Assembly (NCBI RefSeq): GCF_900166625.1
Contig: NZ_LT800499.1
Span: 1,033,558-1,097,557, forward strand
Length of the DNA stretch: 64,000 bases
Direction of reading: 5' to 3'
DNA from: Halobacillus massiliensis
GTDB lineage: Bacteria > Bacillota > Bacilli > Bacillales > Halobacillaceae
Shown in pieces: positions 9,145 to 30,732 of the stretch. Every line of letters starts with the position of its first letter. The stretch's first letter is position 1. The position numbers and the translations under genes are program-made. Below the pieces are notes generated by a model. That model was not told the origin of the DNA. It did no database searches and saw only the letters and a list, made by a program, of their open reading frames with translations.

Positions 9145-9155
9145 GGAGGCATTGT

Positions 9156-12437: not shown

Positions 12438-13073
12438 ATGGAACCGTTTTTGGAGCCTTATCAGTATCATTTTTTAAAGAGGCAAGGTCTTAAAATAGTG
12501 AATGCCCGAATCAGCTCAACTGATTCTCATGTCATTAAAGCCGTCCGGGGAATTGTGGAGGACAGCGTTTTTCATCAATTCAAACACTGTTCGGAGGAAG
12601 AAAGACAGCTGGTGGAACGTATGATTGCAGTTAAAGATGAGACAGAGGTGGAGCAGGTATTAGGTGATCTGCATTCTTTCATTATTCCGTTTCAAGCCTC
12701 AGAAAAGCAGATTAAAAAGCTTTTTCCTAAAGTGAAAAAGCTTAAGATTCCTGATCTAGACCGTATCGATACAAAGAAAATCACATATCTTACGTGGTGG
12801 GACCCGGGCTCTCACAAAAAGTTTATCGTCACAGTCAGAGAAGGAAAGCTATGGGGCATCAACGGGACGTTTCAGAAATCTCCTCAGGAAGGTATCTGTT
12901 CAATTTGCGGACGTCATGAACCGACAGGGCTTTTCTTAGTGGAAAAAAAGGGAAAAGAAGTAGGCACCTACAAGAAAAAAGGAAATTATATTTGCAGTGA
13001 CGGTGAAGCTTGTAATGAAAATCTGACAGATCTTACAAAGCTGGAAGATTTCCTAGATCATTTAAGCCGTTAA
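12438..13073 (+). CDS. FusB/FusC-family EF-G-binding protein
   Basis: The protein has 211 residues, the family's usual length. It has an N-terminal four-helix domain (about residues 1-85) and a C-terminal domain carrying a four-Cys zinc finger (C154, C157, C186, C192). FusB proteins bind elongation factor G and help it leave the ribosome, protecting against fusidic acid; chromosomal homologues are widespread in Bacilli. The ATG follows AAAGGTGGAG. It shares a bidirectional terminator with the convergent xylonate dehydratase gene. Whether this copy confers resistance cannot be judged. Confidence 0.88.
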   Translation: MEPFLEPYQYHFLKRQGLKIVNARISSTDSHVIKAVRGIVEDSVFHQFKHCSEEERQLVERMIAVKDETEVEQVLGDLHSFIIPFQASEKQIKKLFPKVKKLKIPDLDRIDTKKITYLTWWDPGSHKKFIVTVREGKLWGINGTFQKSPQEGICSICGRHEPTGLFLVEKKGKEVGTYKKKGNYICSDGEACNENLTDLTKLEDFLDHLSR

Positions 13074-13102: not shown

Positions 13103-13145
13103 AACAGAAGCCCTTCGACTCTGTAAAGGGCTTCTGTTGTTTTTA
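13103..13145. terminator. Bidirectional terminator between convergent genes
   Basis: A 12-bp stem ACAGAAGCCCTT (13104-13115) with AAGGGCTTCTGT (13126-13137) has T-rich sequence downstream on the plus strand and lies between the convergent fusB-like gene and xylonate dehydratase gene. Confidence 0.85.
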
Positions 13146-15134
13146 TGTTGTTGAATAGCTTTTTTCCTTAAGAGCTTTTTCTCCTGCTTTTAACACTTCA
13201 ATAATCCTGTCCACATCATACACACTGCCTTTCCATGTACCGCCGCTGACCTTTTGCAGCTGTGCCCATAAGCGGGTATCATCCGGCAGGTTTTCAGACG
13301 GACGGATGTCCTTGTTTTGTGTGCGGGCCGCGAGAATCCGGCTTCCTTCTTCAGGGGAGACGGGCTGTTCTTCTGTGCCTAAAAAGTGAAGATGTCCTTC
13401 CAGGTTTACTGTATCAATATATATTTCTACAACGTCTCCGTCTTTTAATTTTCCAATCGGTCCGTCAGCTAAGCCTTCGGGACCAATATGACCGATGCAC
13501 GCACCTGTAGATACACCGGAAAAACGGGCATCCGTAATGAGCGAGACGTATTTTCCATACGATAAATGCTTCAAGGCGGAGGTTAATTGATAGGTTTCCT
13601 CCATTCCTGTCCCTAAAGGACCGCAGCCGGTGACGGCCATAATGTCTCCTTTTTCAATACTTCCTTCGCGAATCGCCTCAATGGCGCTTCTTTCACTCGT
13701 AAATACTTTAATTTTATTTTTATGATAATAAATACCTTCCTCGTCCAGCATCTCAGGATCGATGGATGTGGATTTCATTACAGCCCCTTCTGGAGCGACA
13801 TTGCCGACAGGGAAGGTGATGGTTGAGGTCATCCCCTTGGCTTTTGCTTGTTCCGGCGACATAATCACGTCATCAGCTTCAAGACCATCTGCTTCTTTTA
13901 ATCGTTCTTTCATAGCCTGGCGGCGCTGTGAATGCTCCCACCATTCCAGGTTTTCCCCTAGTGTTTTTCCAGTGACGGTCAGTGCGTCTAAATGAAGCAG
14001 GCCGAGCTCGCGTAAGTGCAGCATAACTTCCGGCACACCTCCGGCCAGGTAGGCACGGACGGTTGGGTGATAATCCGGACCATTCGGTAAAACGCTTACA
14101 ATTCTAGGTGTGCTTCGGTTGACCTCACTCCATTGCTCCACTGTAGGGATAGAACAGCCGGCAGAATAGGCGATCGCCGGGATGTGCAGCAGCAGGTTGG
14201 TCGAACCTCCAAATGCTGCGTGAACGACCATGGCGTTATGAATCGATTTGTCCGTGATAATATCTTTTGTCGTGATTTTTTGATGAATCAGTTCCATGAC
14301 GGCTTTTGATGACTGGCGGGCCATTTCCTTCCAAATATCCTGTCCTGATGGTGCCAGCGCCGCATGTGGAATGGACATTCCGAGGGCTTCTCCGACGACT
14401 TGTGCTGAAGCGGCGGTTCCGAGGAACTGACAGCCTCCGCCTGGTGTGGCACAAGCCCGGCAGCCGAGCTCGGCCGCTTCTTTAAGAGAGAGCTCATCAT
14501 TAGAGTAGCGGGCACCGATCGTCTGCACTTTGCCGGCATCTTCTCCAATCGCCGGAGGCAGCGTAACACCGCCCGGGATAATGACAGTTGGCAAGTCATG
14601 CATTGAAGCTAACGCCATCTGCATGGCAGGAAGGCCTTTATCACATGTGGCCACACCAATAACCGCATGACGTGTCGGCAAGGATCGAATCAGTCTTCGA
14701 TACACTTGTGCGGCATCGTTTCGGTAAGGAAAAGAGTCAAACATGCCGGTCGTTCCCTGTGATCTTCCGTCACACGGATCGCTTACGTACGCGGCAAATG
14801 GAACACCTTGCGTCTTCGTCACTTCTTTTGCTGCTTCTTTCATCAATAGATCGACTTCCCAGTGGCCGGTATGATAGCCAAGAGCCACGGGTTCTCCGTT
14901 ATGATCCTTTATTCCTCCGTGTGTACTTAACAGTAATACTTGTTTTCCGTTCAGCTGATCCGGCCTCCAGCCCATTCCTACATTCTGAGAAAGTCCAAAT
15001 AAATCACCGCTCGGGGAGTGGCGAAGCATATGGTCAGTGAGTGGAAGAGCACCAGAAGGACCCGGGGCTTTCGTCTTTATGGAACCTATATCTGTTTCCA
15101 AATCTCCCATTAAATCTTCAAGTGTATAGCTCAA
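13143..15134 (-). CDS. D-xylonate dehydratase, YjhG/YagF type
   Basis: This 663-residue IlvD/Edd-family iron-sulfur dehydratase matches the long YjhG/YagF subgroup rather than biosynthetic IlvD. Signatures are P-S-G-D-L-F-G near residue 42, cluster and metal Cys in [19 protein letters not shown] and C-A-T-P-G-G-G-C-Q, and S-G-V-S-T-G-A near the end. It converts D-xylonate to 2-keto-3-deoxy-xylonate. It starts with TTG behind AAAAGGAG. It is transcribed divergently from the xylan-oligosaccharide transporter, and its promoter region carries the same palindrome as the downstream-pathway operon at 24049. Confidence 0.93.
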
Positions 15135-15157
15135 AAATAATCACTCCTTTTCCAAGT

Positions 15158-15186
15158 ATTATGAATTTTAAGAATAGTATTGTCAA
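15158..15186 (-). promoter_or_regulatory. Sigma-A promoter of xylonate dehydratase
   Basis: On the minus strand, TTGACA (15186-15181), a 17-bp spacer and CATAAT (15163-15158) lie just upstream of the TTG start. Confidence 0.75.
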
Positions 15187-15200
15187 CATAGTAGAATTAA

Positions 15201-15217
15201 GTTTTATATTATAGAAC
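15201..15217. promoter_or_regulatory. Palindromic operator shared with the 24049 operon
   Basis: GTTTTATATTATAGAAC differs at one base from the perfect palindrome GTTTTATATTATAAAAC at 24018. It lies between the divergent promoters of the xylonate dehydratase and the ABC transporter. The best candidate binder is the IclR protein encoded at 23211; this is inference. Confidence 0.65.
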
Positions 15218-15237
15218 ATTTTTATTTATTAATAGTA

Positions 15238-15266
15238 TTGCTTTTCTGAATTTTATCGTGTACTAT
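15238..15266 (+). promoter_or_regulatory. Sigma-A promoter of the xylo-oligosaccharide ABC operon
   Basis: TTGCTT (15238-15243), a 17-bp spacer and TACTAT (15261-15266), with predicted start near 15273. Confidence 0.65.
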
Positions 15267-15277
15267 GACGTTAAATG

Positions 15278-15302
15278 TTAGTTTGTTTATTGGACGAACT
15301 AA
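15278..15302. promoter_or_regulatory. XylR-type (ROK family) operator
   Basis: The arms TTAGTTTGT and ACGAACTAA, separated by 7 bp, match the Bacillus xyl operator (TTAGTTTGT...ACAAACTAA) in arm sequence and total length of 25 bp. It lies just downstream of the predicted transcription start, where a XylR repressor would block elongation. The xylR gene itself is not in the window. Confidence 0.8.
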
Positions 15303-15360
15303 GTTTAGTCGTGAAGGAGGGGAGTGAAAAGTTCTGCAGAGCTTTTTTTAATTCTATTTT

Positions 15361-15376
15361 ATGAAAGCGCAAACAA
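15361..15376. promoter_or_regulatory. CcpA cre site (ABC operon)
   Basis: ATGAAAGCGCAAACAA matches the consensus WTGNNARCGNWWWCAW at every position. It lies in the leader between the XylR-type operator and the SBP start, implying carbon catabolite repression. Confidence 0.85.
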
Positions 15377-15398
15377 AATTGAAAGGGGAGGGATTTTT

Positions 15399-16676
15399 TT
15401 GATTAAAAAGTATACATGGCTGATGATGGTGGCTTTATTAGTTTTTGCGGCAGGCTGTGGAAATAACTCAACAGGTGGCGAGTCAGGAGGTTCAGGCGGT
15501 TCTGATACGATTACGCTTTGGCATATTGAAACAGGGGCTTCTGAAAAAGCCCTGGAGGATGCAGTCGCAAGGTTTGAAGAGGACCATGACGTGACGGTAG
15601 ATATTGTGAGACAGGAAAACGACCCGTATAAAACGAAGCTGTCCGTGGCTATGGGGGGAGGTACACCGCCAGATGTTTTCCACTCCTGGGGCGGCGGCTG
15701 GCTTGAGGAATTCGTAGATGCTGGGCAAGTGAAGGACATTTCCGAAGATGTCGATACCTCTCAATACTTGCCAGCAGCACTGACTCCGGCCACTTTTGAT
15801 GACAAAACATATGGGGTTCCTTTAGCGATGGATATTGTGCCTGTCTGGTACAACAAGGAAATGTTCGAGAAGTTCGGACTGGAAGAGCCGGAAACGTATG
15901 ATGAATTGCTTGAAATCGTAAAAACGTTAAAGGATAACGATGTGATTCCTTTTTCTATCGCCAACCAGTCGAAATGGCCGGGCTCTTTTTATTACATGTA
16001 CTTAGCTGAACGTATCGGCGGACCTGAGCTATTTAACGAAGCATACAACCGTGAAGGCAGAGGATTTGATGATCCAGCCTATGTTGAAGCAGGAGAGAAG
16101 ATTCAGGAATTAGAGAAAATGGGTGCATTCCCAGATGGCTTTAACGGTATGAATTTTGATACAGGGCAGTCAAGACAGCTGCTCTACGCCGAGCAGGCTG
16201 GCATGATTATCCAGGGAAACTGGATGCTTGGAACGACAAGAGATGATATGCCTGAATTCGAAGAAAAGCTTGGCTTCTTCTTATTCCCGACGATTGAAGG
16301 CGGCGAAGGCTCTAACAAAGATATTGTAGGCGGTGTGAGTCCGGTCTTTTCTGTCGCTGAGAAAAGTGACAATCAAGAAATGGCCACAGAGCTGGTAAAA
16401 GAGCTGACAAGCGCGGAAACAGCACAGCAGCTGGCCAATGAGGATGGAGCCATTTCTGCGGTCAAGGACGTTGAATATGAAGATAAATACGTCCAGCAGA
16501 TCAGCGAGGTCCTTGAAGAAGCAGAGTATATGCAGACATTCTATGATCAGACACTGCCGCCGGAATTAGCGGACGTTCACTTAAATACAACACAGGCTCT
16601 CTTTGGTCAGTCTATGACACCAGAGGAAGCGGCACAGCAGGTAGAAGAAAAAGCGAAGGAAGTATTGGAAGAATAA
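15399..16676 (+). CDS. Sugar ABC transporter substrate-binding lipoprotein
   Basis: This 425-residue CUT1-type binding protein has a lipoprotein signal (M-I-K-K-Y-T-W then a hydrophobic stretch and lipobox F-A-A-G-C) followed by a Gly/Ser linker and the family 1 solute-binding fold. The TTG at 15399 is chosen because GAAAGGGGAGGGA lies just before it; the frame is open upstream to 15324 but that would spoil the signal peptide. Two permease genes follow, and the XylR-type operator upstream points to xylose or xylo-oligosaccharide uptake. No ATPase gene is present, so a shared MsmX-type ATPase is likely. Confidence 0.9.
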   Translation: MIKKYTWLMMVALLVFAAGCGNNSTGGESGGSGGSDTITLWHIETGASEKALEDAVARFEEDHDVTVDIVRQENDPYKTKLSVAMGGGTPPDVFHSWGGGWLEEFVDAGQVKDISEDVDTSQYLPAALTPATFDDKTYGVPLAMDIVPVWYNKEMFEKFGLEEPETYDELLEIVKTLKDNDVIPFSIANQSKWPGSFYYMYLAERIGGPELFNEAYNREGRGFDDPAYVEAGEKIQELEKMGAFPDGFNGMNFDTGQSRQLLYAEQAGMIIQGNWMLGTTRDDMPEFEEKLGFFLFPTIEGGEGSNKDIVGGVSPVFSVAEKSDNQEMATELVKELTSAETAQQLANEDGAISAVKDVEYEDKYVQQISEVLEEAEYMQTFYDQTLPPELADVHLNTTQALFGQSMTPEEAAQQVEEKAKEVLEE

Positions 16677-16682
16677 TTGTTA

Positions 16683-16724
16683 AAACTGCATCAAGTTTTT
16701 AGCAAAGCTTGGTGCAGTTTTTCT
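16683..16724 (+). terminator. Attenuating hairpin between SBP and permease genes
   Basis: Stem AAACTGCATCAAG (16683-16695) with CTTGGTGCAGTTT (16708-16720) and a short T-run lies in the 69-bp gap. Partial termination would yield more binding protein than permease. Confidence 0.65.
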
Positions 16725-16745
16725 AATCTAAGTGAGGTGACTTAG

Positions 16746-17717
16746 TTGAGGAACGAAGCGAAAGCATTTAATGAGTATGACGAATCGTATTCGGGCGTTC
16801 AGCGTAAGCCGATCGTTTCACAGAAACCGAAACGTCCAAAGAAAAAAGAAGATTTTTGGGTCATCGTTGGGTTCATGGGACCGGCCCTGTTAATTTATGG
16901 GGTGTACGTCGTTTATTCCATTGCCATGACATTTTATTACAGCTTGTTTGAATGGTCGGGGATTGACAGCAACATGGTCTTTCTAGGGCTGCAGAACTAT
17001 GTAACATTAATGAGTGACAGTGTGTTTTGGACATCGCTGCAAAATAACTCCCTGCTTGTGGCAGCCTCTCTTTTAACACAATTGCCTTTAGGCCTGATTA
17101 TGGCACTGCTTTTGTTCAGCCCGGTCATTGGCATGAGGTTTTTCCGTTCGGTTTACTTTATGCCGTTTTTAATGTCCACGGTGGCTATTGGTATTCTATT
17201 TATCTATATCTATGACGGGAATTTCGGCATCGTTAACCAGTTTTTAGGGGCCATTGGACTGGACTCATGGCAGCGCGGCTGGCTCGGAAACGAAGAGACG
17301 GCGATCTGGGCCGTGATTGCTACGGTGTGCTGGCAGTTTGCTCCGTTTTATATGATTCTGTTTCGAGCGGCTATTGTCGGTATCCCGGAGGAACTGTATG
17401 AAGCAGCTGACATTGATGGGGCGAATAAGTGGAAAAAATTCGTAAGTATCACATTGCCTTTGCTCATTCCAACGATTGTGACTTCATCGATTCTTTCCAT
17501 TATCGGTGCTCTGAAGTATTTTGATTTGATTTATGTCATGACAGATGGCGGACCTAATAATTCGACAGAGCTAATGGCCACATATATGTATGAACAGACG
17601 TTTACGAATTTCAATATGGGATACGGCAGCAGTATTTCCTTTATGATGTTTATCATTGCACTGCTCGTAACCATTGTCATTATTAGCCTGGACCAGAGAA
17701 GAAAGGGGGCGAATTAA
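16746..17717 (+). CDS. Sugar ABC transporter permease (MalF/LacF type)
   Basis: This 323-residue inner-membrane permease has a cytoplasmic basic N-terminus, six predicted membrane segments starting near residue 40, and the ATPase-contacting EAA loop (E-E-L-Y-E-A-A-D-I-D-G-A-N-K-W). It begins with TTG behind GTGAGGTGAC and ends directly before the second permease gene (no gap). It would form the heterodimeric channel for the xylo-oligosaccharide importer. Confidence 0.92.
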   Translation: MRNEAKAFNEYDESYSGVQRKPIVSQKPKRPKKKEDFWVIVGFMGPALLIYGVYVVYSIAMTFYYSLFEWSGIDSNMVFLGLQNYVTLMSDSVFWTSLQNNSLLVAASLLTQLPLGLIMALLLFSPVIGMRFFRSVYFMPFLMSTVAIGILFIYIYDGNFGIVNQFLGAIGLDSWQRGWLGNEETAIWAVIATVCWQFAPFYMILFRAAIVGIPEELYEAADIDGANKWKKFVSITLPLLIPTIVTSSILSIIGALKYFDLIYVMTDGGPNNSTELMATYMYEQTFTNFNMGYGSSISFMMFIIALLVTIVIISLDQRRKGAN

Positions 17718-18539
17718 ATGCTTGAGAAGCTGAGACAGATTCCACTGTATGTGTTAGCGATTGCTTTGTTTTTATTTACGGGGGTTCCCTTTTTCATCAT
17801 GGTCAATACCTCGTTTAAGACCCAAATTGAGTTTATGAGCTCACCCTGGTCACTGCCAGAAAGTTTTTCCTTGGAAAATTACCAGCTGTTAGTTGAATCC
17901 GAATTTTTCCGGTTTTTCTTAAACAGTATGATTGTATCAGTCATTTCGGTTGTGGCGGTTATTGTCCTGTCAGCAATGGCAAGCTATCCGCTGGCCAGGA
18001 TGCGCTTTAAGCTAAATCGCCCGCTGTTTATATTGTTTCTCGTCGGGATGATGATTCCTATCCATACAACCTTAATTCCGATCTTTATTTTAACAAGAAA
18101 TATGGGACTTTATGATACGATCTGGGCGCTTCCAGGACCTTATATCGCTTTCGCCCTGCCGGTTTCGATCATTATTTTCACCCAGTTTCTAAAAGATCTG
18201 CCTAAGGAATTAGAAGAATCGGCTAAGATCGACGGCTGCGGGCAGTTCCGTTTGTTTTGGAAGATTTTATTCCCACTGCTAACTCCAGCTGTTGCTACAG
18301 TGGCGATCTATAATTTCATCAATATTTGGAACGAGTTTATTTTCGCGCTCGTACTTACGAACTCGCAGAGTAATGCGACTTTGCCTTTAGGATTAAGAGA
18401 GTTTTACGGTCAATTCTCTGTAAACATTCCAGGGATTATGGCTGCGTTAACGCTGGCAAGTCTGCCGCTGCTGTTAATCTACTTTGTCGCACAGGAGAAA
18501 ATCGTTAAAGGAATCGCCGCAGGATCTGTTAAAGGTTAA
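17718..18539 (+). CDS. Sugar ABC transporter permease (MalG type)
   Basis: The second permease (273 residues) has six membrane segments and the EAA loop K-E-L-E-E-S-A-K-I-D-G-C. It starts at the base after the preceding stop, so translation is coupled; an AAAGGGGGCG site lies inside the end of the first permease gene. The GH43 beta-xylosidase gene follows after 26 bp, supporting import of xylo-oligosaccharides that are then cut in the cytoplasm. Confidence 0.92.
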   Translation: MLEKLRQIPLYVLAIALFLFTGVPFFIMVNTSFKTQIEFMSSPWSLPESFSLENYQLLVESEFFRFFLNSMIVSVISVVAVIVLSAMASYPLARMRFKLNRPLFILFLVGMMIPIHTTLIPIFILTRNMGLYDTIWALPGPYIAFALPVSIIIFTQFLKDLPKELEESAKIDGCGQFRLFWKILFPLLTPAVATVAIYNFINIWNEFIFALVLTNSQSNATLPLGLREFYGQFSVNIPGIMAALTLASLPLLLIYFVAQEKIVKGIAAGSVKG

Positions 18540-18565
18540 TCTACTAAAAAGGAGAGGATTTCCCT

Positions 18566-20188
18566 ATGAGTACGATTGTTAATCCGATACTGCCGGGCTA
18601 TCACCCTGACCCATCGATCGTCAGGGCGGGGGAAGATTATTATATTGCCGTATCGACATTCGAGTGGTTTCCCGGTGTGCAAATCTATCATTCGCGCGAT
18701 CTCGCAAACTGGGAGCTGATCGGTTATCCGCTGACCCGCTCCTCTCAGCTCGATATGATCGGTAACATTAATTCCGGCGGAGTCTGGGCTCCGTGCTTAA
18801 GCTACTCTAATGGAAAGTTTTATTTAATTTATACAGATGTGAAAAGCCGGCAGGGAGCTTTTAAAGATACACATAATTATCTCGTCACTGCCGATAAGAT
18901 CGAAGGGCCGTGGTCAGAGCCGATCTACTTAAACAGCAGCGGATTTGATCCTTCTCTTTATCATGAAGAGGACGGCACGAAATGGCTCGTCAATATGATT
19001 TGGGACCACCGAAAAGGGCGCAATTCCTTTGGGGGAATTGTGCTCCAGGAATATTCTGAAGCAGAGAAAAAACTGGTCGGCCCGATCCGAAATATTTTTA
19101 AAGGTACACCACTCGGCTTAACAGAAGCTCCGCACATTTATAAACGAAACGGCTATTATTACTTAATTACGGCTGAAGGAGGAACCGGCTATCAGCACGC
19201 CGTAACGTCTGCCCGTTCGACGAGTCTGTTTGGACCATATGAAGTTGACCCCACGAACCCGATTCTTACCTCTCATCCAGACGATGAACTGCAAAAAGCA
19301 GGTCATGGCAGCTTAGTGGAAACACCTGAGGGAGAGTGGTATATGGCACATTTGTGCGGCCGTCCGGTCAAGGATAAGAAATGTATCCTTGGCAGAGAAA
19401 CGGCCCTGCAGAAATGCATGTGGACGAGTGACGACTGGATTCGTGTCGATGGCGGATCGGGGCCGCAAACGGAGATTGAAGTTCCTGGGCTTGTGGCAAA
19501 GCGGGCCGTTTCTATAAACGAGCGTGATGACTTTAACTCTTCAAAGCTCGATCACTGCTGGAACTCGCTGAGGCGGCCATTTACAGAAGAGTGGATGTCG
19601 CTTGAGGAGCGGACCGGTTATCTTCGCTTAAGAGGACAGGAATCCATGAGTTCTCTTCATAAGCAGAGCCTTATAGCGAGACGACTGGAGAGCTTACATG
19701 CAGAAATTGAAACGTGTATGGAATTCCAGCCGGATAACTTTCAGCAGATGGCGGGCTTGATCATTTATTATGACACAGACGATTATGTCTATTTACGGAT
19801 GTCTCATGATGAAGCAAAAGGAAGCGTCTTAGGGGTGATTCAATCAAAGCACGGCATTTATGATGAGCTCTTAGAGGAGGAAATCGAGCTGCCGGTGCAG
19901 AAGGTATATTTAAAGGCCCGCCTTGAAGAAGAATGGCTGACCTTTTATTACTCGCTCGATGGAGAAACGTGGGAGCGTGTAATCGGTGACATTGACTACA
20001 GTCACCTGTCTGATGAGGACGCAGATTATATTCGTTTTACAGGAACCTTTGTCGGGATGTGTGTCCAGGATGTAAGCGGCCAGCTTAAAACCGCTGATTT
20101 TGATTATTTTTCCTATAAGGAACTCAAAAAAGGAGGCAGTGAATATGAAACAAGCTCTCATCTTTCAGGGCGGCTGGGACGGTCATGA
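18566..20188 (+). CDS. xynB: GH43 beta-xylosidase
   Basis: This 540-residue protein without a signal peptide has the full length of intracellular two-domain XynB enzymes: a five-bladed GH43 propeller (to about residue 320) and a C-terminal beta-sandwich that shapes the active site. The catalytic base D15 (H-P-D-P-S), the pKa-modulating D128 (G-F-D-P-S) and the acid E187 (L-T-E-A-P) sit at the spacing of characterised GH43 beta-xylosidases. It releases xylose from imported xylo-oligosaccharides. The last 44 bp overlap the ThuA gene in another frame. Confidence 0.95.
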   Translation: MSTIVNPILPGYHPDPSIVRAGEDYYIAVSTFEWFPGVQIYHSRDLANWELIGYPLTRSSQLDMIGNINSGGVWAPCLSYSNGKFYLIYTDVKSRQGAFKDTHNYLVTADKIEGPWSEPIYLNSSGFDPSLYHEEDGTKWLVNMIWDHRKGRNSFGGIVLQEYSEAEKKLVGPIRNIFKGTPLGLTEAPHIYKRNGYYYLITAEGGTGYQHAVTSARSTSLFGPYEVDPTNPILTSHPDDELQKAGHGSLVETPEGEWYMAHLCGRPVKDKKCILGRETALQKCMWTSDDWIRVDGGSGPQTEIEVPGLVAKRAVSINERDDFNSSKLDHCWNSLRRPFTEEWMSLEERTGYLRLRGQESMSSLHKQSLIARRLESLHAEIETCMEFQPDNFQQMAGLIIYYDTDDYVYLRMSHDEAKGSVLGVIQSKHGIYDELLEEEIELPVQKVYLKARLEEEWLTFYYSLDGETWERVIGDIDYSHLSDEDADYIRFTGTFVGMCVQDVSGQLKTADFDYFSYKELKKGGSEYETSSHLSGRLGRS

Positions 20189-20801
20189 ACCGGCAGAGGT
20201 TGCTGATATTTTAGCAGGAATTTTAAAAGAAGAGGATTTCCAGGTAAAGGTGACAGATACACTGGAAACGTTAGAAAATGATGACTTAACCACCTATGAT
20301 TTAATCGTACCGAACTGGACACAAGGCACTATTACCGACGAGCAGCTTAAGCCATTGTTGGAGGCGGTCCGTCAAGGGACAGGTTTAGCCGGACTGCACG
20401 GAGGCTTAGGCGATTCCTTTCGGATGGCAACAGACTATCAATTTATGACAGGAGGGCAGTGGGTGGCCCATCCTGGCGATGACGGCGTTACATATACCGT
20501 GCGGATTACGGATGAAAACCATCCACTAACAGAAGGAGTGGACGATTTCGAAGTAGTCTCTGAACAGTATTACATGCATGTCGATCCCGCTGTGAAAGTC
20601 CATGCTGTCACAAAGTTTCCGGAGGCTGAAGGTCCCCATGAGCCGAATGGAGAAGTAGATATGCCGGTTGTATGGAGTAAGAAATGGGGAAAAGGAAAAG
20701 TGTATTACTGCTCGTTAGGACATGTTGCAGAAATCGTACGTATGCCGGAAGTAATGAAACTGATGAAAAACGGCTTTCTCTGGGCCGTAAGGGGACAGTA
20801 A
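20145..20801 (+). CDS. ThuA-domain protein
   Basis: This 218-residue protein has the ThuA (trehalose-utilisation) domain, a class-I amidotransferase-like fold without the catalytic Cys. Motifs are G-G-W-D-G-H, a G-L-A-G-L-H-G-G loop, and V-V-W-S-K-K-W-G-K-G-K-V-Y-Y-C-S-L-G-H. The ATG at 20145 is chosen for the AAAAAAGGAGG site, although it lies 44 bp inside the GH43 gene. ThuA proteins often travel with Gfo/Idh oxidoreductases in 3-keto-glycoside metabolism, as here; the reaction is unknown. Confidence 0.87.
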   Translation: MKQALIFQGGWDGHEPAEVADILAGILKEEDFQVKVTDTLETLENDDLTTYDLIVPNWTQGTITDEQLKPLLEAVRQGTGLAGLHGGLGDSFRMATDYQFMTGGQWVAHPGDDGVTYTVRITDENHPLTEGVDDFEVVSEQYYMHVDPAVKVHAVTKFPEAEGPHEPNGEVDMPVVWSKKWGKGKVYYCSLGHVAEIVRMPEVMKLMKNGFLWAVRGQ

Positions 20802-20802
20802 T

Positions 20803-21918
20803 ATGAAATCATTAAAAGCAGGACTTGTAGGCTGCGGGCATATCAGCGATATTTATTTGCAAAATGCCAGAAAGTTTCCGTCGTTTGAGATAGTCGCGTG
20901 TACGGATTTAAATGAAGAAGCGGCACAGCAGAAAGCTGTGGACTATAACATAGCCAAAGTTTGCAGCCGGGAAGAGATGATGAATGATCGTGATATCGAT
21001 TTTATTATTAATTTAACACCGCCGGCTGTTCATGCAGAGGTCGCACTGGAAGCCTTGCATGCCGGGAAGCATGTGTACAGCGAAAAACCGATCTCCATTT
21101 CAAGGGAGGATGCAAGTCAGGTGCTCCAGACAGCGAAGGATAAAGGACTGCATGTAGGAAATGCACCGGACACCTTTTTAGGCGGCGGCCTGCAGACATG
21201 CCGGAACCTCATTGATCAAGGACTCATCGGCCGGCCTGTTTCTGCAACAGCTTTTATGATGATCCCTGGCCATGAAAGCTGGCATCCGAACCCCGGCTTT
21301 TACTATCAAAAAGGCGGTGGGCCGATGTTTGATATGGGTCCTTACTATTTAACAGCGCTCGTATTTTTAATGGGACCGGTCGTAAGAGTGACGGGATCTG
21401 CAAAAACGACTTATTCTGAGCGTACGATTACGAGCCAGCCAAAATCCGGCCAGAAAATTCAAGTAGAAATCCCGACTCAAATCAACGGGGTGCTTGATTT
21501 CAAAAATGGGGGTGTGGCTTCTATCATTACGAGCTTTGATACGTGGCATCACCAGCTTCCCCCTATTGAAATTTACGGCACAGAAGGCAGCCTGTCTGTA
21601 CCGGATCCGAATCATTTTGGTGGCAAGGTTCAGATCAGGCGCTTCGATGAACAGGAGTGGAGGGACCAGCCACTAACCCATGGATTTACCGAAAACAGCC
21701 GCGGACTTGGAGCCGCTGAATTCGCGCAGGCGATTATGAATGGAGAGTCCCCGAGAGCCAGCGGTGAATTAGCACTGCACGTACTTGATATTATGCAAGG
21801 CATACACGACGCTTCCCAGCAGGAAAAGCATTATAGGATCCAATCCTCCTGTGAGCAGCCGAAAGCTTTACCGCAGGGTCTGGAAATGGAAAACTTTGTG
21901 AGCATGCTTCATCATTAA
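20803..21918 (+). CDS. Gfo/Idh/MocA family oxidoreductase (first copy)
   Basis: This 371-residue NAD(P)-dependent sugar oxidoreductase has a Rossmann start A-G-L-V-G-C-G-H-I, the catalytic-Lys motif Y-S-E-K-P-I-S near residue 95, and a C-terminal alpha/beta substrate domain with a long G-G-G-P-M-F-D-M-G stretch. The ATG follows the ThuA stop directly. Family members oxidise sugars at C1 or C3; haloarchaeal D-xylose dehydrogenases of the Weimberg pathway belong to this family. In this cluster it is a candidate xylose (or 3-keto-xyloside) dehydrogenase. Confidence 0.88.
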   Translation: MKSLKAGLVGCGHISDIYLQNARKFPSFEIVACTDLNEEAAQQKAVDYNIAKVCSREEMMNDRDIDFIINLTPPAVHAEVALEALHAGKHVYSEKPISISREDASQVLQTAKDKGLHVGNAPDTFLGGGLQTCRNLIDQGLIGRPVSATAFMMIPGHESWHPNPGFYYQKGGGPMFDMGPYYLTALVFLMGPVVRVTGSAKTTYSERTITSQPKSGQKIQVEIPTQINGVLDFKNGGVASIITSFDTWHHQLPPIEIYGTEGSLSVPDPNHFGGKVQIRRFDEQEWRDQPLTHGFTENSRGLGAAEFAQAIMNGESPRASGELALHVLDIMQGIHDASQQEKHYRIQSSCEQPKALPQGLEMENFVSMLHH

Positions 21919-21947
21919 ACGAAATGGTGGAAAGGATGAGAGAAAGA

Positions 21948-23108
21948 ATGAGCCGTAAAGAAATTAATATTGGAATGATTGGCTATCAGTTCATGGGGAA
22001 AATGCACAGTCATGCTTACCGTGATTTATCTTTCTATTTTGAGGACACATTAAAGCCCGTCCTCAAAGCCATTGCCGGGAGAAATGAAACCGCCGTTATC
22101 CAGGCTGCTGAACAAATGGGCTGGGAAAGCTATGAAACGGACTGGCGCCGTCTCGTGGAACGCGACGATATTGATGTGATTGACATTGTCACTCCGAACC
22201 ATACACATGCGGAAATCGCGATTGCGGCGGCTGAGCACGGAAAGCATATTCTTTCTGAAAAACCGCTGGCACTGACGGTAGAAGATGCAGAACGAATGAA
22301 GGAAGCCGTCGAAAAAAATGGCGTGCTTCATATGATCTGCCATAACTACCGGTTTGCACCGGCTGTTCAATATGCGAGGAAGCTGATTGAGGAAGGCAAG
22401 CTCGGTCAAATTTATCATATGCGTGCGAACTACCTTCAGGATTTTATTATGGATCCATCCTTTCCTCTCATCTGGAGATTGAATAAAGAGGTCTCGGGCT
22501 CTGGGGCATTAGGTGATATCGGTGCCCACAGCATTGATTTAGCGAGATTTTTAGTCGGAGAGATTTCTGAAGTCAGCGGGATGATGGAAACTTTTATTAA
22601 AGAAAGGCCGCTCCCCGGTGCTGGGCAGGGACTGACCGCTAAAACGGAAAACAGCGAGTATGGAAAAGTGACCGTCGATGATGCCGTTGCTTTTCTTGCC
22701 CGCTTCGAAAACGGAGCCATGGGAACCTTTGAAGCCACCCGCTTTGCCGGCGGAAATCGTAATAAGAACAAATTTGAAATTAACGGATCAAAGGGCTCGG
22801 TACGCTGGGATATGGAAAATATGAACAACCTGGACGTTTACTTTGAAGATTCGCCTGCCGGACTTCAGGGCTTTCGGAGTATTAATTGTACAGAAGAAGT
22901 GCATCCATATGCGGAGGCTTACTGGCCGCCGGGCCATATTATCGGCTATGAACACACGTTTATTAATTTAATGCATGCATTCATGAAAGGCATTGAAGCA
23001 AAAGAAAGTCCTTCCCCTAATTTTGTAGACGGTGTGAGGAATCAGAAGGTGCTGGCCGCTGTGGAGACGTCCGCTAGTGAACGGAAATGGGTATCTATTT
23101 CCAGGTAG
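21948..23108 (+). CDS. Gfo/Idh/MocA family oxidoreductase (second copy)
   Basis: A second, diverged family member (386 residues) has I-G-M-I-G-Y-Q-F-M-G-K-M-H-S-H-A-Y at the nucleotide site and L-S-E-K-P-L-A for the catalytic Lys. I place the start at 21948, behind AAAGGATGAG; in-frame ATGs at 21924 and 21936 are alternatives. It is the last gene of the GH43-ThuA-Gfo/Idh set and precedes the iclR gene. Two adjacent paralogues may act on different substrates or sequential steps; neither can be assigned as xylose dehydrogenase from sequence alone. Confidence 0.87.
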   Translation: MSRKEINIGMIGYQFMGKMHSHAYRDLSFYFEDTLKPVLKAIAGRNETAVIQAAEQMGWESYETDWRRLVERDDIDVIDIVTPNHTHAEIAIAAAEHGKHILSEKPLALTVEDAERMKEAVEKNGVLHMICHNYRFAPAVQYARKLIEEGKLGQIYHMRANYLQDFIMDPSFPLIWRLNKEVSGSGALGDIGAHSIDLARFLVGEISEVSGMMETFIKERPLPGAGQGLTAKTENSEYGKVTVDDAVAFLARFENGAMGTFEATRFAGGNRNKNKFEINGSKGSVRWDMENMNNLDVYFEDSPAGLQGFRSINCTEEVHPYAEAYWPPGHIIGYEHTFINLMHAFMKGIEAKESPSPNFVDGVRNQKVLAAVETSASERKWVSISR

Positions 23109-23147
23109 GATAGGCGAAAGGTTCTGTTATTTTCAGAATAGCAAAAC

Positions 23148-23176
23148 TTGACCGAATTTTTCGTAGCTTATATATT
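23148..23176 (+). promoter_or_regulatory. Sigma-A promoter of the iclR gene
   Basis: TTGACC (23148-23153), a 17-bp spacer and TATATT (23171-23176), 34 bp before the ATG at 23211. Confidence 0.75.
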
Positions 23177-23210
23177 GATGGTACACCATAAAGAGAAGGA
23201 GCTTCCTAGA

Positions 23211-23984
23211 ATGCCTATTATTCAATCCGTAGAAAGAGCTTTTAAAATACTAGATTTATTTAATGAATTCACTCCTGCATTGAAAATTACAGAAATCAGC
23301 CGACAGATGAATTTAAATAAAAGCACCGTGCATTCCCTGCTTAAGACATTAAAGGAATATGGATACATTAAACAGGACACAGAAACAGGCAAATACAGTC
23401 TTGGTATGAAGCTGGTCGAGCGTTCCAGCCTGTTGATGAACAGTATTGATATCCGCTCGATCGCAAGACAGCCGTTAGTCGAACTCTCTAAAGCTGCGAA
23501 TCTTTCGGTCCATTTAGTCGTATTAGACGGCCAGGCGGGAGTATACATAGATAAGGTAGACTCCCCCTCGGCCGTTATCGGCTATTCCCGGGTCGGCCGC
23601 CGTGTTCCCGTTCACTCCAGTGCGGTAGGTAAGGTGCTGCTGGCGTACCAGCCGCAAGACGTACAAAACGACATTTTAAGAAACTACCGTTACGTCAAAC
23701 AAACCGATCGAACGATTGTCACGAAAAAGGATTATATAGAGGAACTGCAGCGAGTGATCGAAAATGGCTATGGTATCGATGATGAAGAGAATGAGCCAGG
23801 TATTACGTGTCTCGCGATTCCTATTTATGACTATAAGGCACGAGTAATGGCGGCTATCAGCATCTCGGCGCCTACAGCGAGATTTTCCGGAGGTAATATC
23901 CATACGGCTATCACACAGCTGAAGGAAACAGGAGCCGTTATTTCTCGCAAACTGGGCTATTCCTCTCCTATATTTCAAGTGTAA
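23211..23984 (+). CDS. IclR family transcriptional regulator
   Basis: This 257-residue protein has an N-terminal winged helix (T-E-I-S-R-Q-M-N-L-N-K-S-T-V-H-S-L-L-K-T-L, about residues 24-44) and the IclR effector domain with H-S-S-A-V-G-K-V-L-L and G-I-D-D-E-E-N-E-P-G-I-T-C-L-A. The ATG at 23211 follows AGAAGGAG; the frame is open upstream to 23148 without a ribosome site. It sits directly before the dehydratase-dehydrogenase operon and is the obvious candidate to bind the shared 17-bp palindrome, with xylonate or 2-keto-3-deoxy-xylonate as possible effectors. Confidence 0.93.
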   Translation: MPIIQSVERAFKILDLFNEFTPALKITEISRQMNLNKSTVHSLLKTLKEYGYIKQDTETGKYSLGMKLVERSSLLMNSIDIRSIARQPLVELSKAANLSVHLVVLDGQAGVYIDKVDSPSAVIGYSRVGRRVPVHSSAVGKVLLAYQPQDVQNDILRNYRYVKQTDRTIVTKKDYIEELQRVIENGYGIDDEENEPGITCLAIPIYDYKARVMAAISISAPTARFSGGNIHTAITQLKETGAVISRKLGYSSPIFQV

Positions 23985-24017
23985 AGTCGCTTTTTTTTAA
24001 CAATATATCGAAACTTA

Positions 24018-24034
24018 GTTTTATATTATAAAAC
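24018..24034. promoter_or_regulatory. Perfect 17-bp palindromic operator
   Basis: GTTTTATATTATAAAAC is a perfect palindrome around a central T. It overlaps the probable -10 region and lies 15 bp before the start at 24049, a repressor position. The only near-copy I noticed is at 15201 beside the xylonate dehydratase gene. Confidence 0.7.
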
Positions 24035-24048
24035 GAAAGGGAGATTAA

Positions 24049-24954
24049 ATGAATATTATTAAATTTGTTCAGGAAGATGATTCGCTCCAGCTAGCCGCTG
24101 TGACGGAGGATAATACTGTCTATCCGCTGCCCTATGAAGACTTTCTTGAGATTATTGAAAAATCAGAGGACGAGGGGGTTTCTTGCCTGGAGCTTGTGAG
24201 TGAAGCGGTTCAGCTCACAGAGCCGCTGGCAAAAGACAACGAAGGCCTGAAGCTGACTCTGCCGCTTGATGCTTATGAAGTCTGGGCCGCGGGCGTGACA
24301 TACTTAAAGAGCAAGCATGCCCGTAACTATGAAGCCTACGGAGAGGAGGAAAAAGTCATATCGTATTATGACAAGGTGTATGAAGCGGACCGCCCGGAAA
24401 TCTTCCTTAAATCCACAGGGCGAAGAACAGTAGGACCCAATCAGCCTGTATATATCCGCTCCGATTCCAACTGGCAGATTCCTGAGCCGGAACTCGGACT
24501 AGTGTTAAACAGCAGTGGAAAAATCGTCGGCTATACCGTCGGCAATGATATGAGCAGCCGTGATATTGAAGGAGAAAACCCTCTTTACCTGCCACAGGCG
24601 AAAATTTGGAAGCATTCCTGCTCCTTCGGTCCGTCCATCAGACTAGCAGAGACGGTCGAAAATCCTTATGATTTGCTGATTACTTGTAAGATCACAAGAC
24701 AGGGGGAGGTCGTTTTTGAAGAAAGTGCCAGTACTGCTCAGCTTAAACGAAAATATAATGAACTAATCGAATACTTAACACGTGATAATGAAGTGTTTTC
24801 AGGGACTGTGCTCTTTACAGGCACCTGTATTATCCCTGGAAATGATTTTACATTAAATGAAGGGGATGTTGTGGAAATCACCATTCCTGAAATCGGCACA
24901 CTCCGTAACACGGTGGAGAAACAGCCGGTAAAAGATACATTAACAACACCTTAA
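24049..24954 (+). CDS. 2-keto-3-deoxy-pentonate dehydratase (FAH family)
   Basis: This 301-residue fumarylacetoacetate-hydrolase-fold protein matches the 2-keto-3-deoxy-arabinonate/xylonate dehydratase subgroup by length and motifs: W-A-A-G-V-T-Y near residue 83, metal ligands in P-E-P-E-L-G-L-V-L, and the diagnostic N-D-M-S-S-R-D-I-E-G-E-N-P-L-Y-L-P-Q-A-K. It would convert 2-keto-3-deoxy-xylonate to alpha-ketoglutarate semialdehyde in the cytoplasm. The ATG follows AAAGGGAG. The dehydrogenase for its product is the next gene. Other FAH activities such as acylpyruvate hydrolysis are less likely in this context. Confidence 0.9.
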   Translation: MNIIKFVQEDDSLQLAAVTEDNTVYPLPYEDFLEIIEKSEDEGVSCLELVSEAVQLTEPLAKDNEGLKLTLPLDAYEVWAAGVTYLKSKHARNYEAYGEEEKVISYYDKVYEADRPEIFLKSTGRRTVGPNQPVYIRSDSNWQIPEPELGLVLNSSGKIVGYTVGNDMSSRDIEGENPLYLPQAKIWKHSCSFGPSIRLAETVENPYDLLITCKITRQGEVVFEESASTAQLKRKYNELIEYLTRDNEVFSGTVLFTGTCIIPGNDFTLNEGDVVEITIPEIGTLRNTVEKQPVKDTLTTP

Positions 24955-24978
24955 AAATTACGAGGAGGATGATGAAAG

Positions 24979-26439
24979 ATGGCAACAACTACAAATACGA
25001 AAAGCTTTTCAAATTATATTAATGGAAAATGGAGCCCATCCGAGTCAAGCGAGGTGATTCAAAGTACGAACCCCGCCAAGCCGGATGAAGTGGTAGGAAC
25101 GGTCCCCAGCTCGACAAAAGGAGATCTGGAAGAAGCCGTTCAGGCCGCTAAAGCCGGACAGCAGAAATGGAAAAAGCTATCTGGAGCAGAGCGGGGAAAC
25201 GTCCTCTTTAAAGCCGCAGAAGTATTAGAAAAGAACCTGGAAGAAGTGGCAGAAACGATGACGAGAGAAATGGGAAAAACCCTGCCGGAAGCGAAAGGGG
25301 AAACAGCAAGAGGTGTGGCGATTCTTCGTTACTATGCAGGTGAAGGCATGCGCAGTGATGGGGATGTTATTCCTTCCACAGACCCTTCAGCCCTAATGTT
25401 CAGCAAACGTGTTCCGCTCGGTGTCGTCGGCGTAATTACACCATGGAACTTCCCTGTAGCGATCCCAATTTGGAAAATGGCGCCAGCGCTTATTTACGGA
25501 AATTCCGTCGTTATCAAGCCGGCCTCAGAAGGTGCTGTCACAGCGGCTAAAGTAATCGAATGCTTTGATAAAGCCGGATTTCCGGAAGGTGTTGTCAATC
25601 TCGTGACAGGAAAAGGATCTGTCATCGGCCAGGGGCTGGCGGAGCATAAGGATGTGGCTGCTTTAACGTTTACCGGCTCCAACGCCACAGGCACCCATAT
25701 CGGTCAGACCGTTGCGGCACGAGGCGGCAAATACCAGCTGGAAATGGGCGGAAAGAACCCATTAATTGTCGCAGAAGATTGTGACATCGATTTAGCAGTA
25801 GACGCTGCGATAAGCGGCGGCCTAAAGTCCACAGGGCAAAAATGTACGTGCAGCAGCCGTGTCATCATTCAAGAAGGGATTTATGATAAATTCAAGCAAA
25901 AGCTTCTTGAAAAAGTAGGAGAAATTACGGTCGGCGACGGCTTAGAAGAGCACACATGGATGGGACCGTGCGCGACGAAAGAACAATATGACAGTGTGCA
26001 AAAATATATTGAAATCGGCCAACAGGAAGGAGCAGAGCTGATCTACGGCGGCAAGACAGTATCCAGTGAGAACAACGGCTATTACGTAGAGCCGGCAATC
26101 TTCGATCAAGTGGAGTCAACGATGAAAATTGCTCAGGAGGAAATCTTCGGCCCGGTGCTTGCTTTAATGAAGGTGAAAACCGTGGAAGAAGCGATCAACC
26201 TCGCTAACGATGTCGATTACGGCCTGAGTGCTTCCATTTTTGCGAAGAACATTGACCATATTCTCGACTTCATTGAAGACGTCGATGCAGGACTAGTACG
26301 AATCAATTCTGAAACAGCAGGAGTAGAGCTTCAGGCGCCATTTGGCGGCATGAAAGCCTCCAGCTCTTATTCGAGAGAGCAGGGTCAGGCAGCGAAGGAA
26401 TTCTTTACGACGTTTAAGACAGTTTTTATAAAGAGGTAA
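24979..26439 (+). CDS. Alpha-ketoglutarate semialdehyde (2,5-dioxovalerate) dehydrogenase
   Basis: This 486-residue NAD(P)-dependent aldehyde dehydrogenase has P-W-N-F-P, F-T-G-S, catalytic E255 (L-E-M-G-G) and nucleophile C289 (G-Q-K-C-T). Its position 24 bp after the keto-deoxy-pentonate dehydratase gene, in one operon under the palindromic operator, indicates oxidation of alpha-ketoglutarate semialdehyde to alpha-ketoglutarate, the last step of the Weimberg pathway. The substrate is assigned mainly from context. A strong terminator follows. Confidence 0.88.
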
Positions 26440-26449
26440 ACATCAATGG

Positions 26450-26488
26450 ACACCTTTGTTCCGATTACGGAGCAAAGGTGTTTTTTTA
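26450..26488 (+). terminator. Rho-independent terminator of the oxidative pentose operon
   Basis: Stem ACACCTTTG (26450-26458) with CAAAGGTGT (26473-26481), then seven T residues. Confidence 0.92.
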
Positions 26489-26661: not shown

Positions 26662-26690
26662 TTGATTGTACGTACGTATTGTTATATTAT
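26662..26690 (+). promoter_or_regulatory. Sigma-A promoter of araDBA with embedded AraR box
   Basis: TTGATT (26662-26667), a 17-bp spacer and TATTAT (26685-26690). The spacer contains GATTGTACGTACGTATTG (26664-26681), an AraR-type box, so repressor and RNA polymerase would compete. Confidence 0.75.
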
Positions 26691-26705
26691 CTACATAAAC
26701 ATAAA

Positions 26706-26721
26706 AATATACGTACAAGGA
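26706..26721. promoter_or_regulatory. AraR operator overlapping the araD leader
   Basis: AATATACGTACAAGGA is a second AraR-like box about 42 bp after the first (four helical turns). It overlaps the Shine-Dalgarno region and would allow cooperative binding or looping. Confidence 0.65.
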
Positions 26722-26732
26722 GAGTGGTAACC

Positions 26733-27425
26733 TTGTTAGATGATTTAAAACAGCAGGTTCTGGAGGCTAACCTTGCTCTTCAAAAGCATAACCTTGTAAC
26801 TTTTACATGGGGGAATGTAAGCGGTATCAATAGAGGGGCAGATCTGATTGTAATCAAACCAAGCGGCGTTTCCTATAAAGATATGACTGTTGAAGATATG
26901 GTGGTTGTCGATTTTGATGGCAATGTGGTGGAAGGGCGATTAAAGCCTTCTTCTGACACACCGACACACCTCGTATTATATAAGCATTTTAAAGACATAG
27001 GAGGGGTTGTTCACACCCACTCCACATGGGCAACTTCTTGGGCTCAATCAGGTAAAGAAGTCCCTGCCCTTGGAACTACTCATGCGGACTATTTTTATGG
27101 ACCTATTCCATGCACTCGTCCGATGACTCAGAAGGAAATTCATCAAGATTACGAAAAAGAAACAGGAAACGTAATTGTAGAAACCTTTAGAGACAGAGAC
27201 CCCAAACAAATGCCTGGGGTGCTTGTACATAAGCATGCTCCATTTACATGGGGGGCAAGCCCGGCGGAAGCAGTTCACAACGCGGTTGTACTTGAAGAAG
27301 TCGCTAAAATGGCTTTGCTTTCTCATCAGTTGGATCAGCAGGTGGAGAATATGGCTCAGGCTTTATTAGATAAGCATTATTTACGTAAACATGGCTCAGG
27401 CGCTTATTACGGACAAACCACATAG
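26733..27425 (+). CDS. araD: L-ribulose-5-phosphate 4-epimerase
   Basis: The 230-residue protein aligns over its whole length with AraD, a class II aldolase-fold zinc enzyme that turns L-ribulose 5-phosphate into D-xylulose 5-phosphate. Visible motifs are [11 protein letters not shown] near the start, zinc ligands in H-T-H-S, and the ending [14 protein letters not shown]. The TTG at 26733 reproduces the AraD start ([13 protein letters not shown]); the longer open frame upstream lacks similarity. It is first in the araDBA operon. Confidence 0.96.
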
Positions 27426-27438
27426 GAGGCAAATAAGT

Positions 27439-29133: not shown

Positions 29134-29146
29134 AGGAGGAAATTAG

Positions 29147-30619: not shown

Positions 30620-30652
30620 GAGATCGGCTGAACAAGCCGGTCTTTCTTTTTA
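30620..30652 (+). terminator. Rho-independent terminator of araDBA
   Basis: Stem AGATCGGCT (30621-30629) with AGCCGGTCT (30635-30643) and a T-rich tail. Confidence 0.9.
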
Positions 30653-30693
30653 GTATCTAATTCATGCAATAAGTACATAATATATGATATGCT

Positions 30694-30712
30694 AACTTAT
30701 ACGAATATGTTA
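30694..30712. promoter_or_regulatory. AraR operator before araR (autoregulation)
   Basis: AACTTATACGAATATGTTA resembles the ACTTATACGTACATGT box at 33925 and lies 20 bp before the araR start, suggesting autorepression. Confidence 0.6.
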
Positions 30713-30732
30713 AGGAACTTGGAGTGAAGCAT

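Follow-up and report, generated by a model that had tools for sequence, protein, structure and literature searches.

Analysis of a 64,000-nucleotide stretch of the Halobacillus massiliensis genome (hereafter the window) revealed an island of genes predicted to act on D-xylonate. The gene for a YjhG/YagF-type dehydratase (yjhG) runs leftward and ten genes run rightward, in the order binding protein, two permeases, GH43, ThuA, two Gfo/Idh oxidoreductases (Gfo1 and Gfo2), IclR regulator, FAH-fold protein (FAH) and aldehyde dehydrogenase (ALDH). A reading made earlier from the sequence only (the sequence-only reading) had placed the dehydratase, FAH, ALDH, GH43, importer and Gfo/Idh genes here as part of an oxidative, Weimberg-type xylose pathway, and this gene content was borne out by intact open reading frames (ORFs) and family profile matches at the positions listed below. 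Overall, our analysis suggests that the island is very probably a Weimberg-type module for D-xylonate breakdown, joined to genes for a xyloside importer and a beta-xylosidase.

13103-13138, minus strand: terminator-like hairpin 3' of yjhG, 14 pairs
13143-15134, minus strand: predicted YjhG/YagF-type D-xylonate dehydratase (TIGR03432; identity to Escherichia coli YagF and YjhG)
15158-15186, minus strand: promoter-like site for yjhG, TTGACA-17-CATAAT, 11/12, a consensus match only
15201-15217, no strand: predicted XynR box 1, immediately upstream of the -35-like element of yjhG; equals 17 bases, on the other strand, of a Serratia gel-shift probe (PMC11778176)
15278-15303, no strand: predicted XylR-type operator in the yjhG/importer gap (pattern match to the xylA site of the same genome)
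15324-16676, plus strand: sugar-binding lipoprotein of an ABC importer (PF01547); the likely true start, read from the sequence, is TTG at 15399
16746-18539, plus strand: two ABC permeases, 16746-17717 and 17718-18539 (PF00528)
18566-20188, plus strand: predicted GH43 beta-xylosidase with a GH43_C2 domain (PF04616, PF17851)
20145-20801, plus strand: ThuA-like protein (PF06283); the ORF as listed begins at 20100, and an ATG at 20145 has a good ribosome site
20803-21918, plus strand: Gfo1, Gfo/Idh oxidoreductase with DMGPY replacing DxGxH (family profile)
21924-23108, plus strand: Gfo2, Gfo/Idh oxidoreductase with a DIGAH motif (family profile; top NCBIfam model levoglucosan dehydrogenase, below cut-off)
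23211-23984, plus strand: XynR-like IclR regulator (PF01614/PF09339); likely start ATG at 23211
24018-24034, no strand: predicted XynR box 2, directly before the FAH gene (pattern match)
24049-24954, plus strand: predicted FAH-fold 2-keto-3-deoxy-D-pentonate dehydratase (best PDB match 2q18; five catalytic residues kept)
24979-26439, plus strand: predicted alpha-ketoglutaric semialdehyde dehydrogenase (ALDH; NF042993)
26448-26483, plus strand: terminator-like hairpin at the end of the unit, 16 pairs

The two hairpins flank the unit close to the limits of 13143-26439 drawn in the sequence-only reading; as a class, terminator-like hairpins are not enriched in the window (12 found, shuffle mean 13.3). 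The rightward genes are tightly spaced, with gaps of 26 bases between permease 2 and GH43, one between ThuA and Gfo1, five between Gfo1 and Gfo2 and 24 between FAH and ALDH, and a gap of 39 bases precedes the listed IclR ORF. No ATPase for the importer (15324-18539) was found among the island ORFs. The G+C content of the island (45-46%) slightly exceeds that of the remaining 4-kb steps (38-45%) and was not used as evidence.

Predicted lower Weimberg enzymes and their linkage in Bacillales

The predicted proteins give good support for a three-enzyme branch that leads from D-xylonate to 2-oxoglutarate (the lower Weimberg branch). Both the D-xylonate dehydratase and the ketoglutarate-semialdehyde dehydrogenase of such a branch were found above the cut-offs of their models: YjhG, which shares 67% of its residues with E. 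coli YagF and 64% with E. coli YjhG, scored 1117.8 bits against TIGR03432 (cut-off 808), and ALDH scored 856.2 bits against NF042993 (cut-off 770). Comparison of ALDH with PDB gave no match at a threshold that was set too strict. GH43 has as its top PDB sequence 1yrz, a xylan beta-1,4-xylosidase that we take to be from Bacillus halodurans, and is 46% identical to E. coli YagH. The nearest solved sequence to FAH is Sulfolobus KdaD (PDB 2q18, E 2.5e-69). Alignment placed KdaD residues E114, E143, E145, D164 and K182 at E117, E146, E148, D167 and K185 of FAH, and all five are kept; the metal ligands and catalytic pair of KdaD are named in the cited part of PMC9795676, where position 164 is printed as Glu, while the PDB chain sequence has Asp. 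A structure prediction for FAH from a single row was too poor (mean pLDDT 36.5) and was not used.

In an even draw of 249 genomes from the order, YjhG was found over cut-off in 21 and FAH (E 1e-60) in 30. The two occur together in 15 genomes against 2.5 expected (hypergeometric P 1.3e-11), and in 13 of these 15 they share a contig and are separated by no more than 22.1 kb. YjhG and FAH are thus clustered beyond chance. The profile scores of YjhG and ALDH, the FAH catalytic residues and this linkage support the three lower steps that had been proposed from the sequence only.

A second sample comprised 80 loci (L numbers) around the best 80 of 130 confirmed FAH relatives; since the loci were chosen in this way, their counts describe close relatives of FAH. 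Five loci (L018, L024, L025, L030 and L075) end at a flank before the whole cluster is visible. Among these best 80 relatives the closest, from Halobacillus and Thalassobacillus, show 70-73% identity, which fits the earlier assignment to Bacillaceae. YjhG (>55% identity) is present in 23 of the 80 loci. These 23 loci carry ALDH (21 loci), a XynR-like gene (13), GH43 (11), the importer (8), GntP (4), Gfo1 (3, one a 46% fragment), ThuA (2) and Gfo2 (1), and SMP-30 was found in none of them. Genera represented among them include Halobacillus, Thalassobacillus, Lederbergia, Aquibacillus, Neobacillus, Halalkalibacter, Ammoniphilus, Peribacillus, Lysinibacillus, Alkalicoccobacillus, Gracilibacillus and Paenibacillus. 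The 57 FAH loci without YjhG have GH43 in two cases, the importer in none and a YagE-like aldolase in 17. L018, counted among the 57, carries permeases, GH43, ThuA, Gfo1 and Gfo2, and its sequence stops before the expected place of yjhG. In a tree of FAH proteins (82 rows, quick method) the window falls in a clade of 15 rows, 13 of them YjhG-linked including the window (SH-aLRT 98%). Linkage to YjhG changes eight times on this tree, at least five times on starred branches, which indicates that the YjhG-FAH pairing arose or was lost more than once. A GH52 protein, presumably of a beta-xylosidase family, was observed between GH43 and FAH in the Thalassobacillus pellis locus (L017, 7820-9925).

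The sequence-only reading had contrasted this pathway with the XylA/XylB isomerase route of Firmicutes. That contrast has to be softened: the genome encodes XylA (719 bits) and XylB (614 bits) outside the island, adjoined by a ROK-like regulator and a second GH43 (52%), and 17 of the 21 YjhG genomes have a XylA that exceeds its cut-off. The xylonate route is therefore additional to XylA/XylB, and replacement of the isomerase route was rejected on the same counts. In two Halobacillus loci (L015 and L016) XylE, ROK regulators, GH43, XylA and XylB come after the module.

Predicted XynR- and XylR-type operators

The IclR protein of the island is 49% identical to E. coli XynR and 30% to YjhI. The pattern GTTTTATATTATA(G/A)AAC is present at 15201-15217 and 24018-24034. 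A scan of the 4.3-Mb genome at up to one mismatch found three places, the third at C2:3745166, and none with the reversed pattern; since both window sites went into the pattern, C2:3745166 alone is independent. The site at 15201-15217 is the exact reverse complement of GTTCTATAATATAAAAC in the gel-shift probe with XynR box that is printed, and reported to be bound, in the Serratia study (PMC11778176, cited part). In E. coli, GTTCTATAATGTAGAAC lies 24 bases before the yagE start and is the sole match at up to two mismatches in 11 kb, with none in 200 shuffles. For an E. coli XynR palindrome the cited part of PMC11778176 quotes Shimada et al. 2017; according to the cited part of PMC13279387, the E. 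coli XynR consensus is not yet characterised and the effector is 2-keto-3-deoxyxylonate.

Comparison of the loci revealed that a box (at most two mismatches) upstream of YjhG, FAH or IclR accompanies the regulator gene. Of 54 loci with a XynR-like gene (at least 40% identity) 39 have the box, against 5 of the 26 that lack the gene (Fisher P 1e-5); restricted to the 23 YjhG loci, the corresponding counts are 12 of 13 and 0 of 10. A XynR-like IclR gene and a predicted box before the xylonate dehydratase gene thus occur together in the island. Predicted XynR boxes precede both the dehydratase gene and FAH-ALDH, which are apparently wired to the XynR-like sensor.

The second predicted operator, TTAGTTTGT-N8-CGAACTAAG at 15278-15303, is similar to a site that the same genome has in the gap separating xylA from the ROK regulator gene. 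The pattern matches the window once, against none in 100 shuffles. At zero mismatches the genome contains three places, namely the island, the xylA/ROK gap and C2:1344577; two of the three carry one mismatch on the opposite strand, and the other five places found have three mismatches, which is the level of the reversed-pattern control. Only C2:1344577 is independent, as the pattern was built from the island and xylA sites; it lies between a gene for a XylE-type porter (741 bits, cut-off 608) and a divergent PTS-permease-like ORF (not profile-scanned). XylR sites before xylA, xylR, transporter and xyloside genes are described for Firmicutes by Gu et al. 2010 (PMC2873477, cited part). An operator like that of xylA is therefore predicted for the island, and together with the closeness of GH43 to 1yrz it supports the link to xylose made in the sequence-only reading. 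Of 16 XylR-type sites found at up to two mismatches in the 80 FAH loci, four precede genes of the six island families: L015 and L016 each have one ahead of yjhG/importer, L027 has one ahead of the regulator gene, and L055 has one about 100 bases ahead of FAH. A scan of 24 genomes at one mismatch gave a match in 19, with the reversed control about equal in several; a XylR-type site within 200 bases of xylA was read by hand in 5 of the 17 genomes with xylA.

We infer enzyme activities, the direction of regulation and the source of the xylonate, and the module would work as follows. The importer would bring in xylo-oligosaccharides, which GH43 would cut. XylR, the xylose sensor, would control importer and xylosidase, and the XynR-like IclR protein would control the dehydratase and FAH-ALDH, probably by sensing 2-keto-3-deoxyxylonate, by analogy with E. 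coli.

Several observations weigh against this proposal. FAH at E 1e-60 is missing from 6 of the 21 YjhG genomes, so that YjhG alone does not imply a lower Weimberg route. YjhG and FAH are both absent, at the cut-offs, from the nine further genomes of this family that were sampled (three of the same genus, six of the same family), and the island is therefore patchy. No XynR box is found in 15 of the 54 loci with a XynR-like gene, and 5 of the 26 without the gene have one. A looser XylR pattern (three mismatches) matches the window no better than it matches shuffles. In the scan of 24 genomes, just 2 of the 21 with YjhG (G000 and G163) have a XylR-type site no more than 600 bases from yjhG, which speaks against a general rule. 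A Dahms branch in the same cell is possible, with a YagE-like aldolase (43%) encoded in a sister locus of this genome (L107).

Source of the xylonate and alternative substrates

It was proposed from the sequence only that one of the Gfo/Idh proteins is the xylose dehydrogenase. This assignment was not established: both proteins score far below the D-xylose dehydrogenase (Gfo6) model NF041392 (Gfo1 60.4 and Gfo2 105.6 bits, cut-off 350), and several sister clusters have no Gfo1/ThuA/Gfo2 cassette, which is also common in genomes without the dehydratase. The top model for Gfo2, levoglucosan dehydrogenase (NF052479), also stays below cut-off (423 against 650 bits), and a scyllo-inositol/L-glucose dehydrogenase is among its PDB relatives. 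Gfo1 has the motifs EKP and DMGPY and Gfo2 has EKP and DIGAH; Tyr181 of Gfo1 is His in all five PDB relatives with alignments listed. Tyrosine occupies this position in glucose-fructose oxidoreductase and in the dimeric dihydrodiol/xylose dehydrogenases. Tyr or His can serve as base in the superfamily (PMC9795676, cited part). A structure prediction for Gfo1 (3 rows) was too poor for use (mean pLDDT 45.5), and ThuA has no PDB sequence match.

Analysis of the 249 genomes found Gfo1 (E 1e-60) in 42 and Gfo2 (at least 53% identity) in 31; the Gfo2 limit was set by hand and keeps 31 of 38 genomes found at E 1e-100, and among the seven dropped G166 has YjhG. Each protein occurs in 10 of the 21 YjhG genomes, against 3.5 (Gfo1) and 2.6 (Gfo2) expected, while YjhG is below cut-off in 21 of the 31 Gfo2 genomes and 32 of the 42 Gfo1 genomes. 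A reading by hand gave 16 genomes with Gfo1 and Gfo2 no more than 3 kb apart. Of ten genomes in which Gfo2 and xylA were both sought and found, three (G037, G049 and G222) have the two at a distance of 3 kb or less. Since the cassette is commonly found without YjhG, is absent from several sister clusters and can lie near xylA, it seems to concern xylose-type sugars without being required by the xylonate branch or restricted to it. Two gene runs speak for a link between cassette and branch: L020 has Gfo2, ThuA, Gfo1, importer, ALDH, FAH and YjhG in sequence on one strand, and G094 has Gfo2, Gfo1, YjhG and FAH within 14 kb.

Tentatively, then, Gfo1 with its tyrosine motif, or Gfo2, could be a D-xylose 1-dehydrogenase whose lactone opens spontaneously or through an SMP-30 protein encoded elsewhere. 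The same strand and tight spacing behind the XylR-type operator, the L020 run, the excess of both proteins in YjhG genomes and the use of Tyr or His as base favour this assignment, and Corynebacterium glutamicum IolG oxidises xylose to a lactone that can open spontaneously (PMC6475665, cited part). Against it stand the low Gfo6 scores, the many Gfo genomes without YjhG, the levoglucosan and inositol/glucose dehydrogenase relatives of Gfo2 and the ThuA gene, which hints at a 3-keto-glycoside route (remark on thuAB in the cited part of PMC4765114). No lactonase was found among the scanned window ORFs (ORF 29147-30619 and short ORFs left out), so that the earlier statement that no such gene is present holds for these ORFs; elsewhere the genome encodes an SMP-30 lactonase-like protein (C2:2622115-2622846; L012, L108; 280.6 bits, 302 aa). 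The three scanned neighbours of this gene are amino-acid genes, and it is unlinked to the island.

In a serious alternative, though one less likely than not, the importer might take up xylobionate-like acids that GH43 would cut to xylose (to XylA/XylB) and D-xylonate (to the Weimberg branch), with no need for a xylose dehydrogenase. Among the 11 YjhG loci with GH43, just L075 also has ThuA and Gfo1; of the other ten, eight gave no match to ThuA, Gfo1 or Gfo2 at the thresholds applied, L016 carries a 46% Gfo1-like fragment, and L030 stops too soon after GH43 to be judged. The module, GH43 and xylAB are adjacent in L015 and L016, and the E. coli yagEFGH-xynR operon likewise couples YagF with a putative xylosidase/arabinosidase. 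YjhG is accompanied by a GntP permease in four loci and by a YagG-like porter (33-34%) in two, which suggests that acids may be imported as such. The presence of the oxidoreductase cassette with importer and module in the window and in L020 argues against uptake of oxidised oligosaccharides. Xylose oxidation by the cassette and such uptake are about equally likely.

An extended arrangement, which we consider unlikely, would make the island a two-sensor splitter of oxidised xylan fragments. GH43 would cut xylobionate-type acids, XylR would send xylose to XylA/XylB and XynR would send xylonate to 2-oxoglutarate; a single XynR-box regulon would tie the island to a second locus (nickel-pincer isomerase, TRAP importers and large IlvD-like dehydratase) feeding other pentonates into the same keto-deoxy intermediate. 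If true, this would account for the retention of both xylose routes and for the lack of a xylose dehydrogenase candidate in several sister clusters.

That an aldolase mainly splits 2-keto-3-deoxyxylonate to pyruvate and glycolaldehyde, as in the Dahms route of E. coli, is very improbable. The aldolase of L107, where the gene of a TRAP binding protein has a XynR box, agrees with it; FAH and ALDH lie within the island, a YagE-like aldolase occurs in just 1 of the 23 YjhG loci (L070) against 17 of the other 57, and no YagE/YjhH-type aldolase matched in the window at E 1e-3. A Dahms-only route for the window was rejected, as no aldolase was found there. D-xylonate and D-arabinonate yield the same 2-keto-3-deoxy acid. 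Service to another C5 acid such as D-arabinonate, for which the characterised relative of FAH is named, is likewise very improbable given that the dehydratase and regulator are nearest to E. coli xylonate proteins and that a XylR-type operator and a xylosidase are present.

The sister locus L107 (C2:3729000-3748900) contains two TRAP importers, a nickel-pincer isomerase of group 22, a 734-aa IlvD/EDD-like dehydratase, a XynR-like regulator (51% to that of the window), FAH (58%), a galactarate-dehydratase-like protein, a ketoglutarate-semialdehyde dehydrogenase, the YagE-like aldolase, a hydroxyacid dehydrogenase and LarB. The large dehydratase or isomerase of this type occurs in 37 of the 80 FAH loci, one of which (L038) also has YjhG. 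L107 may be a sugar-acid route; C2 epimerisation of pentonates is our guess.

Comparison with known systems and neighbouring genes

Among the closest known counterparts is the D-xylonate operon yagEFGH-xynR of E. coli K-12, which shares YagF (67%), the GH43-like YagH (46%), XynR (49%) and a XynR-type box before yagE. The E. coli operon has the aldolase YagE (Dahms), whereas the island has FAH and the semialdehyde dehydrogenase (Weimberg); further features of the island are its ABC importer, the XylR-type operator and the ThuA/Gfo genes. With Caulobacter crescentus xylXABCD the island shares the three lower reactions, including an IlvD/EDD dehydratase (PMC9795676, cited part), and D-type keto-deoxy dehydratases tested in PMC7374468 (cited part) are annotated as FAH family. 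It differs in that no SDR xylose dehydrogenase or lactonase was found among its scanned ORFs, in the archaeal KdaD as nearest solved FAH and in its regulators. Sulfolobus KdaD (2q18, 3bqb) aligns with FAH over the five catalytic residues and most of the chain, but archaeal aldopentonate dehydratases belong to the enolase superfamily (PMC9795676, cited part).

The XylR-type operator resembles the Firmicutes XylR regulon in the kinds of genes it precedes (PMC2873477, cited part), and the words 'Weimberg', 'xylonate' and 'oxidative' are absent from the main text of that paper. B. subtilis natively uses the isomerase route and has received the Caulobacter genes (PMC6985040, cited part). In the literature searched, with part of the matches inspected, no natural Weimberg branch was found in Bacillales. 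What appears new is that a predicted xylonate set resembling E. coli yagF/yagH/xynR ends in Weimberg steps, occurs in Bacillales and has operators of the XylR and XynR types. If active, it would supply Gram-positive genes with which hemicellulose could be turned into 2-oxoglutarate and glutamate at no loss of carbon. As the H. massiliensis genome, E. coli and Serratia have a XynR-type box in common, the regulation can be tested directly, and the pairing of XylR with XynR raises the question of when xylan carbon goes to the pentose phosphate route and when to the citric acid cycle.

The island is flanked by UxaC and UxuA on the left and by AraD, AraB, an AraA-like ORF (not profile-scanned) and an arabinofuranosidase on the right; the flanking UxaC, UxuA, AraD, AraB and arabinofuranosidase mark the wider stretch as a hemicellulose-sugar region. 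The left part (126-5197) encodes a GH31 enzyme, UxaC, UxuA and an SDR protein, a glucuronate branch perhaps for xylan side chains. The adjoining arabinose island (26679-39388) also has a GntR/LacI-type regulator, an ABC importer, a DUF624 protein and an Fe-ADH_2 protein. A D-amino-acid type set lies at 8053-11239 (an Ala_racemase_N/D-ser_dehydrat protein, an amidohydrolase and a YjgF-type protein), adjoined by a sodium:solute symporter and a YheO-like regulator. An EF-G-binding protein (PF07299) is encoded between the islands at 12438-13073, and a sigma-54 activator followed by a class III aminotransferase, an AAT-type acyltransferase and an aldehyde dehydrogenase is found at 44817-51035.

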